DNA of 13,514 bases from Pseudomonadota bacterium. Lineage in GTDB: Bacteria; Pseudomonadota; Gammaproteobacteria; Competibacterales; Competibacteraceae. Location: assembly GCA_018262135.1 (NCBI GenBank), contig JAGTSD010000064.1, positions 1-13,514 of the forward strand, written 5' to 3'. Shown one piece after another: positions 5,176-12,207 of the stretch. The first letter of the stretch is position 1. Each line of letters starts with the position of its first letter. The notes under the pieces were generated by a model, which did no database searches, had not been told where the DNA came from, and saw only the letters and a list, made by a program, of their open reading frames with translations. A program made the position numbers and the translations under genes.

Positions 5176-5775
5176 TTAGGGTTGAGTGAACCCCACCAGA
5201 TAGTGATCCAGCAACGATCTCGCCACCTCCTGGATCGGTGGTCCGCCCGCCATTTCCAGCTTCTGATCGAAACCCAGGATGCAGATGCCGTGGACGCCGC
5301 TCCACAGGGCTCGGGCGGCCAGGGTGATCTCCCCGGGAGAGCGCCGGGGACAAAGCAGCGCCAGTTGTTGCTGCACCAGTTCAAACATGCCGGTCACCTT
5401 GGCGGTAAAGGATTCAGGCAGCGGCTGACCCTCCGGCATCCGGTGCTGGTAGATGGCCAGCCAGCGGTGGGTTTCGGCAAGGGCAAACGTGATATAGGCC
5501 TGCGCCAGTGCCCGAATCGCAGCAGCCGGCGGCTGGCCGGCGATGGCGGCGATCAGGCGGGCTTGCAGGGCTTCCAGCGTTCGCTCGTTCATTTGGGCGA
5601 TCAGATCGTCCAGATTGCGGAATACCATGTACAGACTGCCGACCGTGTAGCCGATGCGGCCCACCACCTTGCGGGTGCTCAGGCCAGCGAGGCCGTGGTC
5701 GGCGACCAGATGTTCGGCGGCTTGCAACGCGATTTCCCGGAGTTCCTCGCGCGTATGTTCGTTGCGTCTACCCAT
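5176..5775 (-). CDS. TetR family regulator with WHG-type C-terminal domain
   Basis: A 199-residue DNA-binding regulator. Residues about 8-55 form the TetR helix-turn-helix domain (ALQAAEHLVADHGLAGLSTRKVVGRIGYTVGSLYMVF). The end of this stretch, TVGSLYMVFRNLDDLI, matches the recognition helix and following Tyr/Phe segment of the family. The C-terminal half is all-helical and contains ALWSGVHGICILG (about 159-171), the W-x3-HG signature of the WHG ligand-binding domain. It acts in the cytoplasm, normally as a repressor released by a small molecule; the inducer is unknown. The ATG at 5775 has a GGAG ribosome binding site and lies 27 bp after the kinase stop on the same strand. It is therefore probably the last gene of the VWA-phosphatase-kinase operon. 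It may control this operon or the next gene (mltD-like, 130 bp away). Confidence 0.9.
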   Translation of the reverse strand: MGRRNEHTREELREIALQAAEHLVADHGLAGLSTRKVVGRIGYTVGSLYMVFRNLDDLIAQMNERTLEALQARLIAAIAGQPPAAAIRALAQAYITFALAETHRWLAIYQHRMPEGQPLPESFTAKVTGMFELVQQQLALLCPRRSPGEITLAARALWSGVHGICILGFDQKLEMAGGPPIQEVARSLLDHYLVGFTQP

Positions 5776-5802
5776 GGCAATGCTCCGGCTACCGCGGGCC
5801 GC

Positions 5803-7800
5803 CTAACCGCGACGGCGCCGCCAGAGGGCGTCCAGAGCCGGCGGAAATACCCGCAGATCGGCTTGGGCCTGCGCTTCCCGCATCGCCTGATGAATCAGAG
5901 CGACATTGATCTGGGCGCGCTGTTTGAGAACTTCCGTCCTGATTTTAGCCAGTTCGTCGGGTCCCGCCAGCAGTTCCCTTTCGATTCGCGACCGTTCCTG
6001 AGCATATTGCTGGCGCAAGCGGGCAACGGCGGCGGGATCAACCCCCTGGCGGGGATCGTAGCGGAAACGCTGCTCCAGGGCCTGGCGCCAGGCGAGCAGT
6101 GCCGCTACCCGCTGGTGGCCCAACCGTTGGCCGAAGCCGGGTACGACTTTCAGAGCCTCGGCGGTAACGTCGGCGGCGGTTTCGATGCCGTAGGATTCCA
6201 GCGCCATCCGGTCGGTGGTCAGAATGCCGGGAATTTGGACTGCGTCGATGAAATGGCTTTCCAGAAATGCTTGCAATTGAATCCGGCGCTGGTCGGTTTC
6301 GAGCTGCCGCACGTCCCGCTGCAACTCGTCCGCCAGATGACGGTGCCGGTCGCGCAGGGCATTCAGGGCCTGCAACCGGGCTGCGAACGCTTGACCGGTT
6401 GCGCGCTGGTTCCAGGCGGCGCGCAGTTCCAGCAGTTCCTGGCGGGCTGCGAACAGTGCCAGCCGGCGTCGCTGAACCTCGCGATGGACCGCGCCATCCC
6501 GTAGCAGCGACCAGGCCGCGACCGCCAGCGGCAGCCACAACCAACTCAGCGGCCAATGAACCAGAATCGCCGACAGCGCCGCACCGGCGATGGCAGCCGC
6601 TTTGATCGCATTGTGGCGCTGGATCTGCCGCAGCGGGTCCGGGAGCGGTGTCGGGACAATCGGCGTGCGCGGCGTGGGGGCGGGCATCGCTTCGTCGCCG
6701 GGCGGCGCGATGGCCTGAATCCGGCTCCAGACCTGGTCCAGATCGAAGTCGGGCAAGCCCGCGCCGACCAGGTCAGCCAACGCGAAGCGTTCCGGCAGCA
6801 GGAAGAACGCCGTCCCGCTGGCTTGTTCCAGCGCGCACCACGGACAGTCCGGCAAGGCGCGGGGGTATTTATGGACGCTGTTGCGGCCGCAGGCGCGCAG
6901 TTCGGCGCTGAGTTGCTCCAGTGCCCGCAGCCAGTCGTGAGCCCCGGGACGACCCTGCGCCAGTTTGGGCGGGGCAAAGGCCCGCTCGAACAGGTCGGTA
7001 ACGGGGGGCGGCAGGACGGCGAACGGCAAGGTGTGCGGCGGCGGCTCCATCTGCCGGGTGTGGGCATGACGGCCAAAGGCAAAGCGGCATTCCCGGATGG
7101 CCCGCTCGATGGGCATGTCGCCCTTGCCCCGGTAGCGGCCGGCGAAGGGGTGGCGGCCCATGAATAACAAATGGAAACACAGCAGGGCCAGGCCAAAGGC
7201 GTCGTGATCCGGCGTGCGCCGCAGGCCGTGGAACGACTGGCCCTGCAATTCCGGCGCGGTGAACTGCGGCACGCCGACATCGCAGAGAAACAGTTGGCCG
7301 CCGGCGCTGATCTGGAACGAATCGCAATCGATCAGCTTGACCAGCGCCTGGGGCGAGACCACCACGTTGCCGGGGTTGACATCGCCGATGACGTGGCCAC
7401 GGGCGTGAATCGCCTCGAAGGCGCTGGCCAGGTTGCGGGCGGCGTGGACCAGAAACGACCAGTCGGCCTGCGGGAACGCCTTTTTGCGGTGCGAGGGGCC
7501 GTAAAGGCTGTGGATTTCCCGGTAACCGTTGACGCGGGGCATGACGAAGCCCTGTACCCGAGCATCAGGCCGGGGGCGCAGCACGTCCACCGGCCAGGTG
7601 GCGATTTCCAGCAGGCTGGGATGCGCTTGCCGGGCCATGTTGTCCAGCTTGAGCGCCTTGTTGGCGCTGATGGGCTGGTGGTAGACCTTGGCGACGAAGC
7701 CGGGCCGGCCAGTGATTTCGTAGACCACGCCCTCGCCGCCACGCCCCAGTGCCGGCCCCAGCTCGAGCGGGTAGCCCGCGCCGTTATACAGCTTCGTCAC
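5803..7800 (-). CDS. YegI-type protein kinase with zinc-ribbon-like, TM, coiled-coil and HhH regions (TerY-P triad kinase)
   Basis: From the GTG at 7800 the protein has 665 residues. Residues about 10-290 are a Ser/Thr-kinase fold: glycine loop LGRGGEGVVYE (18-28), VAK with Lys38, catalytic loop GDVNPGNVVV (Asp140, Asn145; no HRD Arg), and the metal-binding region LIDCDSFQ (about 156-162), followed by TAPELQG. A possible metal site C-x5-H-x8-C-x2-C (Cys304, His310, CPWC at 319-322) follows. Next come a hydrophobic, probably membrane-spanning segment (about 398-432), a charged coiled coil (about 435-510) and a helix-hairpin-helix-like motif (VPGFGQRLGHQRVAALL, about 553-569), which may bind DNA. 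This is the architecture of E. coli YegI (COG4248). The frame is open to 7923, but that extension overlaps the phosphatase tail and is Pro-rich without domain features. The GTG overlaps the phosphatase stop by 17 bp, suggesting translational coupling. It presumably phosphorylates the VWA partner or another target. Confidence 0.85.
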   Translation of the reverse strand: MTKLYNGAGYPLELGPALGRGGEGVVYEITGRPGFVAKVYHQPISANKALKLDNMARQAHPSLLEIATWPVDVLRPRPDARVQGFVMPRVNGYREIHSLYGPSHRKKAFPQADWSFLVHAARNLASAFEAIHARGHVIGDVNPGNVVVSPQALVKLIDCDSFQISAGGQLFLCDVGVPQFTAPELQGQSFHGLRRTPDHDAFGLALLCFHLLFMGRHPFAGRYRGKGDMPIERAIRECRFAFGRHAHTRQMEPPPHTLPFAVLPPPVTDLFERAFAPPKLAQGRPGAHDWLRALEQLSAELRACGRNSVHKYPRALPDCPWCALEQASGTAFFLLPERFALADLVGAGLPDFDLDQVWSRIQAIAPPGDEAMPAPTPRTPIVPTPLPDPLRQIQRHNAIKAAAIAGAALSAILVHWPLSWLWLPLAVAAWSLLRDGAVHREVQRRRLALFAARQELLELRAAWNQRATGQAFAARLQALNALRDRHRHLADELQRDVRQLETDQRRIQLQAFLESHFIDAVQIPGILTTDRMALESYGIETAADVTAEALKVVPGFGQRLGHQRVAALLAWRQALEQRFRYDPRQGVDPAAVARLRQQYAQERSRIERELLAGPDELAKIRTEVLKQRAQINVALIHQAMREAQAQADLRVFPPALDALWRRRRG

Positions 7801-8691
7801 CGGATTTTTCCCGGATGGCGGGTGGGGAGGGAACGGAATCAGGTTCGGTCGAGGCGGTGACCGGAGCGATAGGGTTACTCTCGGCGGGTTCGGCGGGCGG
7901 GGGAGCAACGACCGGCTCGGCAATCGGGGCGGGAAGCCGGGTCGCCAGGATCAGGGTTTTATCGTCGTGGGTGCGCTGGTTGACGGCCGGCGCGTCCAGA
8001 AAACGCTCCAGCGCGGTCTGCAAGTCGGCCGGACAGCCTGGCGCGGAGGCCGCGCGCAGCCGCAGAAACAGCGGGCGGAAGAACGGGTTTGATAGTGCAG
8101 CGCCAGCCCCTGCAGGCCGTCGGTCAGCAGGGCGATTTCGGCGATCGGTTCGACCGAAGCGGCGAATTCCAGGCGGGCGGCGGCGCTGGCGTCGGTAGCG
8201 AAATAGGTTTCGTTGGCGTATTCACCGGCCTGTGGCCAGAACACCGGCCAATAGTCATCCCCGATTCCGATCACGATGGCGCCGTCGCCGATTTGCAGGA
8301 ACAGCGCATGATCGTCGGCCAGCACCGCGCCGAGCAGGGTGCAGGCGAATTCCCGAACCGGCAAGCCGGTTTCCGCCGCGCGCTGGCTCAGGGCGGTTCG
8401 GACCTGCTCGATCAGCGTTTCGGCGACCGCCCGCGTCCACTCGGCATCGGGCGTTTGCGCCAGCCAGGCCGCGCATTCGGTCAGCAGGGTTTGGCAGGCC
8501 AGTTCCGCGCCGGCGCGTGCCTCGGTGGCGCTGCCTGCGCCATCAGCGACGGCCAGCGCCAGCGCCGGTCGCCCGTCGGAAGCCTCCAGCCGCCGGACCG
8601 CGCAGGCGTCCTGACACTCGGTCCCGCTGGTGCGATGGGCCACGCCGGGGACACTGGCGTACACATAGTGCCAGTCGCCCGTTTCCTTCAT
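7784..8691 (-). CDS. PP2C-type protein phosphatase (YegK-like, TerY-P triad) with an apparent one-base frameshift
   Basis: A PP2C-fold serine/threonine phosphatase, expected to reverse phosphorylation by the neighbouring kinase. Visible PP2C motifs: ECQDACAV (about 25-32), [12 protein letters not shown] (Asp50), QIGDGAIVI (Asp136) and [12 protein letters not shown] (Asp191). After Tyr200 (8094-8092) the frame runs into unlikely residues and stops at 7951. A shift of one frame at about 8088-8091 instead gives [14 protein letters not shown], then [15 protein letters not shown] and [11 protein letters not shown], which carries the last metal-binding Asp, and ends at 7784. Adding one A to the AAA run at 8088-8090 restores a 302-residue protein. 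About 50 Pro/Ala/Glu-rich residues form its tail. The ATG overlaps the VWA stop as ATGA. The reading frame open upstream to 9087 is a shadow of the VWA gene. Sequencing error and real mutation are both possible; no canonical -1 slippery heptamer is seen. Confidence 0.8.
8088..8091 (-). other. Apparent frameshift site in the PP2C gene
   Basis: On the coding strand the sequence reads TAT CAA ACC CGT. Reading AAC CCG TTC TTC instead regains the PP2C C-terminus. One missing A in the A-run explains it exactly. The two frames are reported here as one gene. Confidence 0.7.
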
Positions 8692-9383
8692 ACCGAAGCC
8701 CAGCCGTCGGGACTGGCGGGATTGCTCAGCGGTACTTCCGTGCCCGGCGTCGAGCGCGATACCGAGCGCATCGAGTTCGATAGCCACTGGAACAGCTCGC
8801 GGAAACGCAGCCCTTTCAGTCGCAGCGGCTGGCGCAGGGAAATCCGCTGCAAAATATCCAGGTTGGCGCTCTCCACGCCGACCGCGAAGAAGGCAAAGGC
8901 GCGATTTTCCTCGCCCTTGCGCACCTCGAGTGCGGCGGCCTGCCAGTCGTCGGTGGGACTGCCGTCGGTGATCAGAAACACCCAGGGCCGGAAGAAGGGG
9001 ATGCCATGTTCCCGATAAAGCGCCTTGCGCTGGTCGAGCAGCTCCAACCCCTGGATGATCGCCTGACCCATCGGCGTATCCTTGCATGCGCTCAGGTGAG
9101 GTGGGGTGAAGTGCTCGGCGGTCTGAAACTCGGCGACCACCTCGACCGGACCAAAGCTGACGATGGCGATCTCGACCCGCTTGGCGGCGAGGCTGTCGGC
9201 TAGCAGTTCCTCCTTAAAAGTGGCCAGTCCTTCGTTGAGTTCGGCGATGGGCGCGCCGTTCATGGACCAGGAATTGTCCAGCAACAGCACGCAGGGGCAG
9301 CGCGGTTCGGGATTGTCGGCGAATTCGGCGCCGCTGAAATCCGCGCCGAACGGGGTTTGTCGGGGAAGGTCGAGTTCGTTCAT
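8688..9383 (-). CDS. TerY/YegL-type von Willebrand factor A domain protein
   Basis: A 231-residue cytoplasmic VWA protein. The metal-ion-dependent adhesion site is complete: D36-N-S38-W-S40 (LLLDNSWSM), Thr103 in KDTPMGQAI and Asp140 in [12 protein letters not shown]. The remainder is a Rossmann-like VWA fold (AIVSFG at about 73-78, FFAVGV at 165-170, FRELFQWLS at 194-202), with a short polar tail. Its length and motifs match E. coli YegL and tellurium-resistance TerY (COG4245). It is the first gene of the operon, with an AGAGGA ribosome binding site and an ATG at 9383. Its TGA overlaps the ATG of the phosphatase. In the TerY-P triad the VWA protein is thought to act as a metal-dependent scaffold or target whose phosphorylation is set by the kinase and phosphatase encoded next to it. 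That role comes from comparative genomics rather than from this sequence. Confidence 0.92.
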
Positions 9384-9423
9384 CCTGAGAGTCCTCTGAT
9401 GCAGCGCGGGTGCGAACCAATTG

Positions 9424-9429
9424 ACTATA
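9424..9429 (-). promoter_or_regulatory. Candidate -10 element for the VWA-PP2C-kinase operon
   Basis: On the minus strand 9429-9424 reads TATAGT, one base off the sigma-70 -10 consensus, about 40 bp before the VWA ATG. The hexamer at 17 bp spacing (ATCCGC, 9452-9447) is not a -35 consensus and lies in an inverted repeat, which suggests regulated or activator-dependent use. Confidence 0.4.
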
Positions 9430-9432
9430 ACC

Positions 9433-9453
9433 CATCCGCCACGATTGCGGATG
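9433..9453. promoter_or_regulatory. Candidate operator: perfect 7-7-7 inverted repeat between divergent promoters
   Basis: CATCCGC (9433-9439), seven unpaired bases, then GCGGATG (9447-9453). It sits between the minus-strand TATAGT (9424-9429) and the plus-strand TATAAT (9459-9464), covering the -35 regions of both. That is the placement of a shared operator for a dimeric regulator. A transcribed hairpin is the alternative. Confidence 0.45.
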
Positions 9454-9458
9454 ACCGG

Positions 9459-9464
9459 TATAAT
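9459..9464 (+). promoter_or_regulatory. Candidate -10 element of the coiled-coil envelope protein gene
   Basis: A perfect TATAAT lies 35 bp before the ATG at 9499. No -35 consensus is found at 16-18 bp; that position falls in the left arm of the inverted repeat. TTGACT at 9421 is too far away (32 bp) to be its partner. Confidence 0.45.
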
Positions 9465-9498
9465 GCGCGCCGTTTCGAGCGGGATAGACCAGGAAAAG

Positions 9499-10212
9499 AT
9501 GATGAAGTTGACGCGGGTTTGGATGGGGCTCGTCCTGGGCGTGGCGTTACTGTCAGGTTACGCGGGACCGGCTCCGCCGGTGGAGCCGGTGGCCACGCCG
9601 GACCATGCCGTATTGATGGCCCGGCTGGACGATCTGGACGCGCGGCTGGACGACCTGGAACGGGCGGTCGCTGCCGAGCGGGTGGAGCGGCGGGCGCGGG
9701 CGACGGCGAGCGAACGGGCGGTGGCCGCGCTCAAACGGGAACTCAAGGAGGCGAAAGTGGTTGTAGCCAGCTTGCGGCGCAAGGTCGAGGCGGCGCCACT
9801 CCCGCCCGCGCCACGGGGAGTGGCAACCGCCAGCCGTGATGCGCCGAACGTGACTTACAGTCCGGTTGACGCGGTTCTGGGCGAATTGCCCGGCGGCAAC
9901 GGCGAGCGGACGGCGCGGCCGATTCCGGCTGCGATTCCCAGCACGGCGCGGGAGATTCTGGTATACGCCCAGGTGGCGACGGGGTACGTCAAGGGCGGCC
10001 CGCACCGATTCCGCATTGCGACACGATTGGACGGCGACCGGGAAGCGGCGTTCTATCTGTACGCGGTCGGTCAGCCGCAGCAGAGCTGGGCCTACAATTC
10101 CGACAATGTCTGGCTGCCGATGCCGAAAAACCGGGAACTGATCCTGCAAGCGGACGGTGAACCGTTCTTCGGCGACTGGAACAGTGAGGTCAGGATTGTC
10201 GGCTATCGGTGA
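9499..10212 (+). CDS. Coiled-coil envelope protein of unknown function, former lipoprotein-like signal
   Basis: I do not recognise this 237-residue protein. It starts at ATG 9499 (or the adjacent ATG 9502) after AGGAAA. Residues 1-21 look exactly like a lipoprotein signal (KLTR, hydrophobic core, LLSG), but the position where the lipobox Cys is expected (residue 21) is Tyr (TAC, 9559-9561); TGC would be one base away. It may be retained as a membrane anchor or cleaved differently. A strongly heptad-patterned coiled coil follows (about 38-97, with [12 protein letters not shown]), as in other lipid-anchored coiled-coil proteins, then a Pro-rich linker (about 99-148). A compact, aromatic-rich C-terminal domain (about 149-237) contains [32 protein letters not shown] and [11 protein letters not shown], and probably has a beta fold. 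It is divergent from the VWA operon and 84 bp before the DUF389 gene. Confidence 0.8.
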
Positions 10213-10296: not shown

Positions 10297-12207
10297 ATGA
10301 ACGACGATTCCACGCCTTCCGCGCCTCCCGATGCCCCGAGCCTCGGCCTGCTGTTCGATTCTGCGGCGGAAGTGATGATGCGGGACCAAATTTTGCCACT
10401 GCTGGAGGATCGACTGGCGCAAGCGCTGCCGTATCGTCCCAGCACCCTGCCGGACTGGCCGGAAGGAATGACGGTCCTGGCCTACCTCGACGACGCGGCG
10501 TTTGGCGAACTGGCGCCGATAGCTGCGGCCCGGCGCTGGCGGCTCGGCCTGCTGCCCCATCCCGGCCTGAACCAGGCCAGGCTGTGCTTCGGCGTGGCCC
10601 AACGCCTGGAACACGCGCTGGACGACGCGTTGAACGGTCAAAAGGACCGGCGCGTCGATCTGCTCTACTGCAATGGCCGGCCGGTCTTCAACTCGGTGGT
10701 CGTCGGCAAGGTCTTCACCCTCGGCGGAAGCGGCCAGGCGCCGAACTGGCGAACCCGGTTTCAGAGCATCCTGCGCATTCTGCGATCCGGCTTTGGTGCC
10801 ATGAAACTCCATCCCTACACCCTGACCACCGGCAAGGACAAGACCCTGGCCACCGCCGCGCTGGGCATGGTGATCGTGGAGGAAGGGGGCAGTTCGCTGC
10901 TGTCGCGGCGGATTCTCGACGACCCGGGCAGCAACGACGGCATGCTTCAAGCCCTGGTGCTGGCGCCGCACAGCCGGATGGAGATGCTGCGCTTTTTGCT
11001 GGCCGCGTTATTCCCGGCCAGCCAGCACAAAAAACCGCTGCGGTTCGTGGGCCACCTCAAGACCGCCACCTTGACCGTGACCAGTCCGCAGCCGCTGGAT
11101 TACCTGCACGACGGGGTCTGGACCAGTGCCCGTCGGCTCGACCTGGAGGTGAAGCCCAAGGCCTTGCGCCTGCTGCCGGGCCGGCACCTGAACCTCGGCG
11201 AGGATGTAGTGCAGACCAAGGAGATTTACAAGGTCCAGGGCCTGCCGGTCGGCGAGGCCAAGGCCGCGCTGATCAGCAAACCCCTGCCCTGGCTGCACCG
11301 GGCCAGTACCGAGGAGTTCAGGGACCTGTACCTTGCGCTGCGGGACAACGCCCGGCCTTCCCCGGCCTATCTCACCCTGATGGTGCTTGCTACCCTGCTG
11401 GCGACCATCGGGCTGTTCGCCAACTCGGCGCCGGTGATTATCGGCGCCATGATTCTGGCCCCGCTGATGGCGCCCATCATCTCCCTGGCGATGGCGGTCG
11501 TCCGGCAGGATGGGGTTTTGCTGGCCGGCAGCCTCAAGACCCTGGGCCTGGGCATCCTGCTGGCCCTGGGTTTCGCGGCGATGATGACTTGGGTGATCCC
11601 ACTGCGTTCCGTGACCGGTGAAATCGCCGCCCGGCTCAGCCCGACCTTGCTGGACCTCGGGGTCGCCATCGTCTCCGGAGTGGCTGGCGCCTACGCCCAT
11701 GCGCGGGAAGAAGTCGCCCGAAGCCTGGCGGGCGTGGCCATCGCTGTGGCGCTGGTGCCGCCGCTGGCGGTATCCGGCATCGGCCTTGGCTGGGGCGAGT
11801 GGACCATTTTCCAGGGTTCCTTCCTGCTGTTTTTGACCAATCTGTTCGGGATCGTGCTGGCTGGCAACCTGACGTTCCTGCTGCTCGGCTTCGGTCCGTT
11901 CGGCCTGGCGCGGCGCGGCCTGTTGGCGTCGCTGGCGCTGGTAGCCGTCGTCAGCGCGCCGCTGGGTGTGGGATTCGCGCGAATGGTCGAGGAAAAAGCG
12001 GTCGTTCAGGCGCTGGAGGGATGGGAGACCGAGGGGGTGGTCCTGCGCGGGACGGCCGTGCAACCGGGTGACCCGCTGCACCTGTCGGTACGGCTGCTGT
12101 CGTCGTCCACCCTGGACGGCGCCGCCGTGGAGCGCGTCAAGCGAGCCATCGAAGCCCGTCTCGACCGCCCGGTGACGTTGGAAGCCACCGTCGCGATCAG
12201 GCGTTGA
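10297..12207 (+). CDS. DUF389 (TIGR00341-type) membrane protein with N-terminal lipid-kinase-like region
   Basis: A 636-residue protein with two parts. The C-terminal part is the DUF389 membrane domain (about 355-560), with hallmark segments NSAPVIIGAMILAPLMAPII (376-395), LSPTLLDLGVAIVSGVAG (447-464), GVAIAVALVPPLAVSG (479-494) and LTNLFGIVLAGNLTF (513-527). It ends in a soluble region (about 565-636). The N-terminal part (about 55-310) resembles the diacylglycerol-kinase/YegS fold: LGLLPHPGLNQAR (83-95) in the place of the usual LP-x-GT-x-ND-x-AR, VDLLYCNGRPVFNSVVVG (120-137) in the place of the VNG/FLN/G segment, and HDGVWTSARRLDLEVKPKALRLLP (271-294) in the place of the DGE strand. Key kinase residues (GGDGT, Asn-Asp, DGE Glu) are altered, so catalysis is doubtful; it may bind nucleotide or lipid. 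Transport substrate unknown. It may be co-transcribed with the upstream envelope gene. Confidence 0.85.
   Translation: MNDDSTPSAPPDAPSLGLLFDSAAEVMMRDQILPLLEDRLAQALPYRPSTLPDWPEGMTVLAYLDDAAFGELAPIAAARRWRLGLLPHPGLNQARLCFGVAQRLEHALDDALNGQKDRRVDLLYCNGRPVFNSVVVGKVFTLGGSGQAPNWRTRFQSILRILRSGFGAMKLHPYTLTTGKDKTLATAALGMVIVEEGGSSLLSRRILDDPGSNDGMLQALVLAPHSRMEMLRFLLAALFPASQHKKPLRFVGHLKTATLTVTSPQPLDYLHDGVWTSARRLDLEVKPKALRLLPGRHLNLGEDVVQTKEIYKVQGLPVGEAKAALISKPLPWLHRASTEEFRDLYLALRDNARPSPAYLTLMVLATLLATIGLFANSAPVIIGAMILAPLMAPIISLAMAVVRQDGVLLAGSLKTLGLGILLALGFAAMMTWVIPLRSVTGEIAARLSPTLLDLGVAIVSGVAGAYAHAREEVARSLAGVAIAVALVPPLAVSGIGLGWGEWTIFQGSFLLFLTNLFGIVLAGNLTFLLLGFGPFGLARRGLLASLALVAVVSAPLGVGFARMVEEKAVVQALEGWETEGVVLRGTAVQPGDPLHLSVRLLSSSTLDGAAVERVKRAIEARLDRPVTLEATVAIRR

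Follow-up and report, generated by a model that had tools for sequence, protein, structure and literature searches.

A Competibacteraceae operon that probably encodes a lineage-specific form of the YegL-PphC-YegI signalling module, with an adjoining TetR-family gene

Which signalling system do four closely packed genes of a Competibacteraceae genome encode, and when would the cell need it? The genes lie in the window, the whole 13,514-nucleotide stretch of DNA that was analyzed, which is contig 444 of a 2.59 Mb genome. Positions 9383-5176 (minus strand) carry an operon whose products would be a VWA protein (its MIDAS complete), a phosphatase of the PP2C family, a membrane kinase with an HhH region, and a TetR-family regulator. 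The VWA and PP2C genes overlap by ATGA, and the PP2C coding frame stops (7784) within the start region of the kinase gene, which starts with GTG at 7800 and stops at 5803. The preliminary description of this locus was right about the operon overall but missed a frameshift in the phosphatase gene. The nearest named relatives were Candidatus Contendobacter and Competibacteraceae records, with 58-86% identity in the kinase. By eye, a probable -10 box of the operon (TATAGT) was placed at 9424-9429 on the minus strand, and many of the 28 operon upstream sequences that were compared have a TATATT-like box in a comparable position.

On the other side of this region, a lipoprotein-like gene without a Pfam family (9421-10212, plus strand) is divergent from the VWA gene and gave matches in 18/30 loci of Competibacteraceae versus 0/50 others. 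Its own probable -10 box (TATAAT, 9459-9464, plus strand, by eye) is close to that of the operon, and many of the 28 upstream regions have it too. The following gene (10297-12207, plus strand) encodes a DUF389 membrane protein, the N-terminal part of which gave weak lipid-kinase-like (YegS) matches.

The three signalling proteins had been assigned to the yegL-yegK-yegI kind of Escherichia coli, and matches to YegL, PphC (yegK), and YegI bore this out. In E. coli, autophosphorylation of the kinase and its dephosphorylation by the phosphatase are reported, and the available text of the same report states that no condition promoting yegI and pphC expression has been defined so far (PMC13232886). 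A list of the S/T- and Y-protein kinases of E. coli has only eight entries, YegI among them (PMC8463566, available part), and pphC appears in the accessible text of another source only within a gene pair of unknown pathway (PMC8022724).

The VWA gene (8688-9383, minus strand) encodes a YegL/TerY-like protein of 231 aa with a Pfam VWA domain (model pLDDT 86.1), which was 62% identical to YegL of E. coli MG1655 over 216 aligned residues, tail included. The MIDAS consists of the D-x-S-x-S core (D36, S38, and S40; 9264-9278) and is completed by T103 (9075-9077) and D140 (8964-8966), all on the minus strand. As had been read from the letters alone, this MIDAS is complete, and every one of its residues was identical in 56/56 aligned sequences, an alignment that kept only six Competibacteraceae. 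After the last VWA helix, the alignment revealed a C-terminal tail, VSxS...GW (8691-8762, minus strand), in which V208, S209, and S211 were kept in 55/56 sequences and G227 and W228 in 56/56; a looser tail pattern within the last 40 residues matched 77/79 VWA copies. Judged from its conservation, the tail could be a site of docking or phosphorylation. A sequence search of solved structures with the VWA protein gave nothing convincing (best E 0.32), and a fold search with its model matched VWA domains of other proteins, with TM scores (by query) mostly of 0.45-0.6, a similarity that is uninformative about function.

The PphC-like phosphatase gene (7784-8691, minus strand) matched Pfam PP2C_2, so that the family assignment stood, but its metal motifs are not complete in frame. 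Three-frame translation showed that the in-frame ORF (8691-7951) ends in a tail unlike that of its relatives and that the rest of the PP2C coding frame, separate from it, extends as far as the stop at 7784. An alignment with five relatives (L026, L002, L003, L005, and L007) showed that the window is 16 nt short at 8084/8083; of its indels relative to L026, this alone is no multiple of three. The last metal-binding motif was thereby lost in frame, whereas it was kept in 28/28 other Competibacteraceae copies; by a simple pattern, it was present in 71/79 PP2C copies overall. If the frameshift is real, the window copy encodes no complete phosphatase. That the frameshift is instead an assembly error, the gene being intact in the living cell, is to us an even call. 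The assembly is a draft of 469 contigs, and kinase genes are broken as well in other assemblies (L026, L028, L029, and L032). Moreover, a database protein of 307 aa, standing for 18 sequences, aligned across 85% of the query with 95% identity, indicating that an intact close relative exists. Against an error, a gap of 16 nt does not look like the usual single-base mistake, and the remaining indels relative to L026 are all multiples of three.

The kinase gene (5803-7800, minus strand, GTG start) encodes a YegI-like membrane protein of 665 aa (model pLDDT 90.8), which shares 38% identity with YegI of E. coli across 654 alignment columns. The altered active site, the C-H-CPWC cluster, and the HhH region of the two proteins all line up. 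The kinase domain (residues 5-322; 6835-7788) contains a GGEG loop, K38, D140-x-N142, and D158-x-D160, and the alignment and model show a predicted active site that is altered but conserved. At the end of this domain, a C-H-C-C cluster (C304, H310, C319, and C322; 6835-6891), a putative metal site, was invariant in 54/54 kinase sequences, in agreement with the Cys/His cluster that had been described. The hydrophobic segment of the preliminary description was also found and could be refined: residues 388-433 (6502-6639) are modeled as two helices (388-414 and 416-433) that form a hydrophobic hairpin and a probable membrane anchor, and both segments were hydrophobic in 49/54 kinases. With such a two-helix hairpin, the kinase and HhH parts should share one side of the membrane. 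In the model, long, coiled-coil-like helices follow (residues 436-514; 6259-6495), and then the helix-hairpin-helix region (residues about 519-578; 6067-6246), all on the minus strand. HHH_5 was matched by 9/54 kinase members at E<=0.01, and the window protein was below Pfam detection; L534, A542, and W571 in this region were invariant in the 54-sequence alignment. Several close relatives are named 'DNA-binding helix-hairpin-helix protein with protein kinase domain' by JGI. A sequence search of solved structures with the kinase retrieved only distant kinases (best E 0.00037), and the fold search with its model was filled by kinase domains; it says little about the part after residue 322.

The trio had been expected to be conserved as a unit. 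Eighty related loci were fetched by the kinase, and VWA, PP2C, and TetR genes were then sought in each. VWA, PP2C, and kinase genes were found together in 75/80 loci, and loci without all three genes together, which were looked for, were few (5/80). In three of the five (L004, L022, and L070), a contig end truncates the locus; L021 was without PP2C, and L072 was without both VWA and PP2C. Elsewhere the trio stood in another gene order (L038) or with 2-4 kb between two of its genes (L005 and L081), and one Competibacteraceae genome (G016) had the VWA gene without a kinase orthologue or TetR gene. The exceptions L021, L072, and G016 indicate that the unit is not strictly indivisible. Within Competibacteraceae, a kinase orthologue was found in 31/39 genomes (in pieces in G002, G004, G014, and G015) and is thus near-core; the other eight gave only weak generic kinase matches (five genomes) or none (three). 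The VWA gene was found in 30/39, and in G019 and G036, which were without it, the kinase is close to a contig end. A kinase match at E<=1e-40 was obtained in 5/396 other genomes sampled from the phylum of the window, one of them partial.

Several single loci of this survey deserve a record of their own. In L021 (3024-5747), the VWA gene is followed directly by the kinase gene, with no PP2C between. Genome G024, whose coordinates agree with those of L021, contains a second kinase paralogue (C176:709-2610) that is 38% identical to the window kinase. L017, which is titled Phycisphaerales bacterium, has a Competibacteraceae-like triad and TetR, 61-89% identical to those of the window, and is probably mislabelled. 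On a Pseudomonas syringae plasmid (L083, 4110-7990), the triad lies directly 3' of genes for an S24 peptidase and a Y-family DNA polymerase.

The regulator gene (5176-5775, minus strand; TetR_N and TetR_C_33) begins about 30 nt 3' of the kinase gene. A TetR gene was found close 3' of the kinase in 30/31 Competibacteraceae genomes with the kinase versus 0/8 without it (Fisher p 1.5e-7, relatedness ignored). In G035, the one exception, 57 nt separate the end of the kinase from that of a contig. The gap between the two genes was 26-68 nt in 29 genomes and 122 nt in one, and the window TetR had no match in the 50 loci outside Competibacteraceae. This strict co-occurrence, together with the absence outside the family, points to TetR as a lineage-specific, co-inherited fourth member. 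No literature report of a TetR-YegI operon was found among the matches listed from literature searches, one of them broad. The regulator could instead be a passenger, unrelated to the trio, placed downstream by chance, and not acting on it, a reading that we consider rather unlikely. TetR regulators are common generally, the lack of a match in loci outside the family would also fit a passenger, and shared descent within one family could likewise give the co-occurrence. A further point in its favor is that no palindrome was shared upstream of the operon in 28 sequences, among the repeats listed, when the last 130 nt were searched with arms of 7, a gap of up to 6, and one mismatch; the window has an imperfect ATCCGCA/GGCGGAT repeat there, which was not seen in the other 27 among the repeats listed. 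However, the 30/31 versus 0/8 distribution, with a gap of 26-122 nt in all 30 genomes, argues against chance placement.

An anti-phage or abortive defense module, in which the trio would sense phage or damaged DNA through the HhH region and serve, like TerY-P, as a defense switch, is an unlikely account, to which we would give about one chance in five. TerY-P protects Pseudomonas aeruginosa PAO1 against phage, according to the available text of PMC10889362. The core of the window kinase resembles PADLOC PD-T4-6 (E 1.7e-8), but the match is confined to residues 119-223, the generic kinase core, and nothing links the other domains. The rare and patchy occurrence of the kinase in the phylum, as counted above, would also fit defense. 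Kinase relatives were found in 100 records of a plasmid collection, 28 of which cover >=80% of the query and some of which are chromosome-sized. Relatives of the VWA protein turned up in 3 phage records, and in 4 loci genes judged by eye, from sequence, to be of type I restriction lay within 10 kb. On the other hand, the kinase is near-core in Competibacteraceae, and the PADLOC TerY models gave no match to the window at E<=10. The latter is weak evidence, because the same models also miss the TerY of ter loci, and they matched E. coli YegL only at E 0.032.

A constant fourth partner across phyla was sought by clustering of flanking ORFs and was rejected. Among the 50 loci outside the family, DUF4236 formed a cluster in 5, and type I restriction genes did so in 4. 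The other recurrent clusters comprised <=5 loci each, except one of 10 loci, which was set aside because its members resemble antisense ORFs that a simple gene caller places across the triad. Pfam tallies of 153/173 neighbor ORFs (71 + 82, with 20 left out) gave <=2 members per family among the best 25 families listed for each; one further TetR-family neighbor could escape such a listing. DUF4236 (PF14020) occurred at 13 places in 10/50 triad genomes outside Competibacteraceae, and 6/13 places were within 5 kb of the kinase versus 0.03 expected at random, under a placement model that ignores shared ancestry, although the six records are named from different groups. One kinase in this distance count was represented by a longer ORF, and one of the six nearby DUF4236 matches (G466) is partial (35/55 positions). 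The neighborhoods concerned are L049, L060, L062, L068, L074, and that in genome G466. DUF4236 was also found in both ter plasmid regions (L114 and L115), and none was found in the 39 Competibacteraceae genomes. These distributions allow a speculative picture, which we hold to be improbable, in which the triad is a plug-in phospho-switch that relays membrane or DNA stress to a partner, and its fourth part is swapped by lineage, with an obligate TetR in Competibacteraceae and DUF4236 in several other bacteria. With its presence in plasmid ter loci as well, DUF4236 would then be the missing link between YegI-type and TerY-type systems.

The preliminary description had called the operon an isolated version without Ter genes, and this was borne out. 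TerD (PF02342) was not found in the genome of the window, which is 75.5% complete, and neither TerD nor a restriction gene was recognized in the window. Among 50 other triad genomes, mostly drafts, TerD was present in 8, at 31 places, with 0/31 near the kinase; it was on other contigs in seven of these genomes and, in G468, on the same contig at a distance of hundreds of kb. That the trio is a component of tellurite or metal stress resistance working with TerC, TerD, or TerZ encoded elsewhere is very improbable: the three protein kinds also occur in ter plasmids, the metal-type cluster aligns (BLASTP) with the Cys cluster of the ter-locus kinase, DUF4236 lies near both kinds of genes, and draft assemblies could hide nearness across contig ends, but the TerD counts and a VWA protein without TerY_C speak against it.

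We consider the trio to be the YegL-PphC-YegI signalling module as it exists in Competibacteraceae, a known kind of system in a new, lineage-specific form, and we put the probability of this reading, jointly with the following mechanism, at about 0.65. The kinase would reside in the inner membrane, and both its kinase part and its HhH part would be cytoplasmic. It would phosphorylate itself, and probably its partners too, and the phosphatase would reset it. Through its metal site and tail, the VWA protein may assemble the complex or present a substrate, and either the HhH/helical part or the membrane hairpin might receive the signal. In Competibacteraceae, a TetR regulator appears to have been added to the operon, where it most likely tunes expression in response to a small molecule. 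The preliminary description is partly supported by these results: its core holds, whereas the phosphatase is broken, the membrane model is better, the TetR link is firmer, and the Ter link is weaker. Its proposals that the operon is under TetR control and may read DNA state through HhH went further than these results, and both should be taken as conjecture.

The near-core trio and its co-inherited TetR in Competibacteraceae offer a handle on when the switch is needed; the ligand and binding place of TetR, once found, would tell this. In the window, the frameshifted phosphatase would bias the switch to the kinase-on state, unless it reflects an assembly error or a shift in a single strain, and a broken copy, if real, would be a natural kinase-on case. 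The DUF4236 link provides a concrete candidate partner.

The operon was also compared with known systems. TerY-P, as described in the available text of PMC11090510, is a triad of a TerY-like VWA protein, a PP2C phosphatase, and a kinase whose C-terminus bears a zinc ribbon (Anantharaman et al. 2012) and a frequent companion of CoCoNuT systems; a TerY-P island is mentioned for Helicobacter pylori (PMC4978471, available text). The window shares with this triad the VWA protein, the PP2C phosphatase, and a kinase in which a metal-type cluster follows the kinase domain, the invariant C-H-C-C residues standing at the place of the zinc ribbon as a putative metal site, but its kinase differs by the added hydrophobic hairpin and HhH region. 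The ter loci of IncHI plasmids (L114 and L115) encode the three protein kinds in the same order as the window. However, the TerY of L114 has a strong TerY_C match and the window VWA protein has none, the two VWA proteins are only 30% identical, and the ter-locus kinase aligned with the window kinase only over residues 124-323 (26%). Because it is without TerY_C and only 30% identical to the ter-locus TerY, the window VWA protein is, by sequence, placed in the YegL branch, distinct from the TerY of tellurite loci. The earlier label 'TerY-P type' thus named the right kind of trio, VWA, PP2C, and kinase, but blurred two branches. With E. coli, the window shares the gene order yegL-pphC-yegI. PphC was compared with the intact phosphatase of the relative L002, because that of the window is broken, and was 39% identical to it; unlike PphC, the window phosphatase is frameshifted. 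In E. coli K-12, yegJ lies between pphC and yegI and no TetR gene adjoins, whereas in the window a TetR gene follows the kinase.
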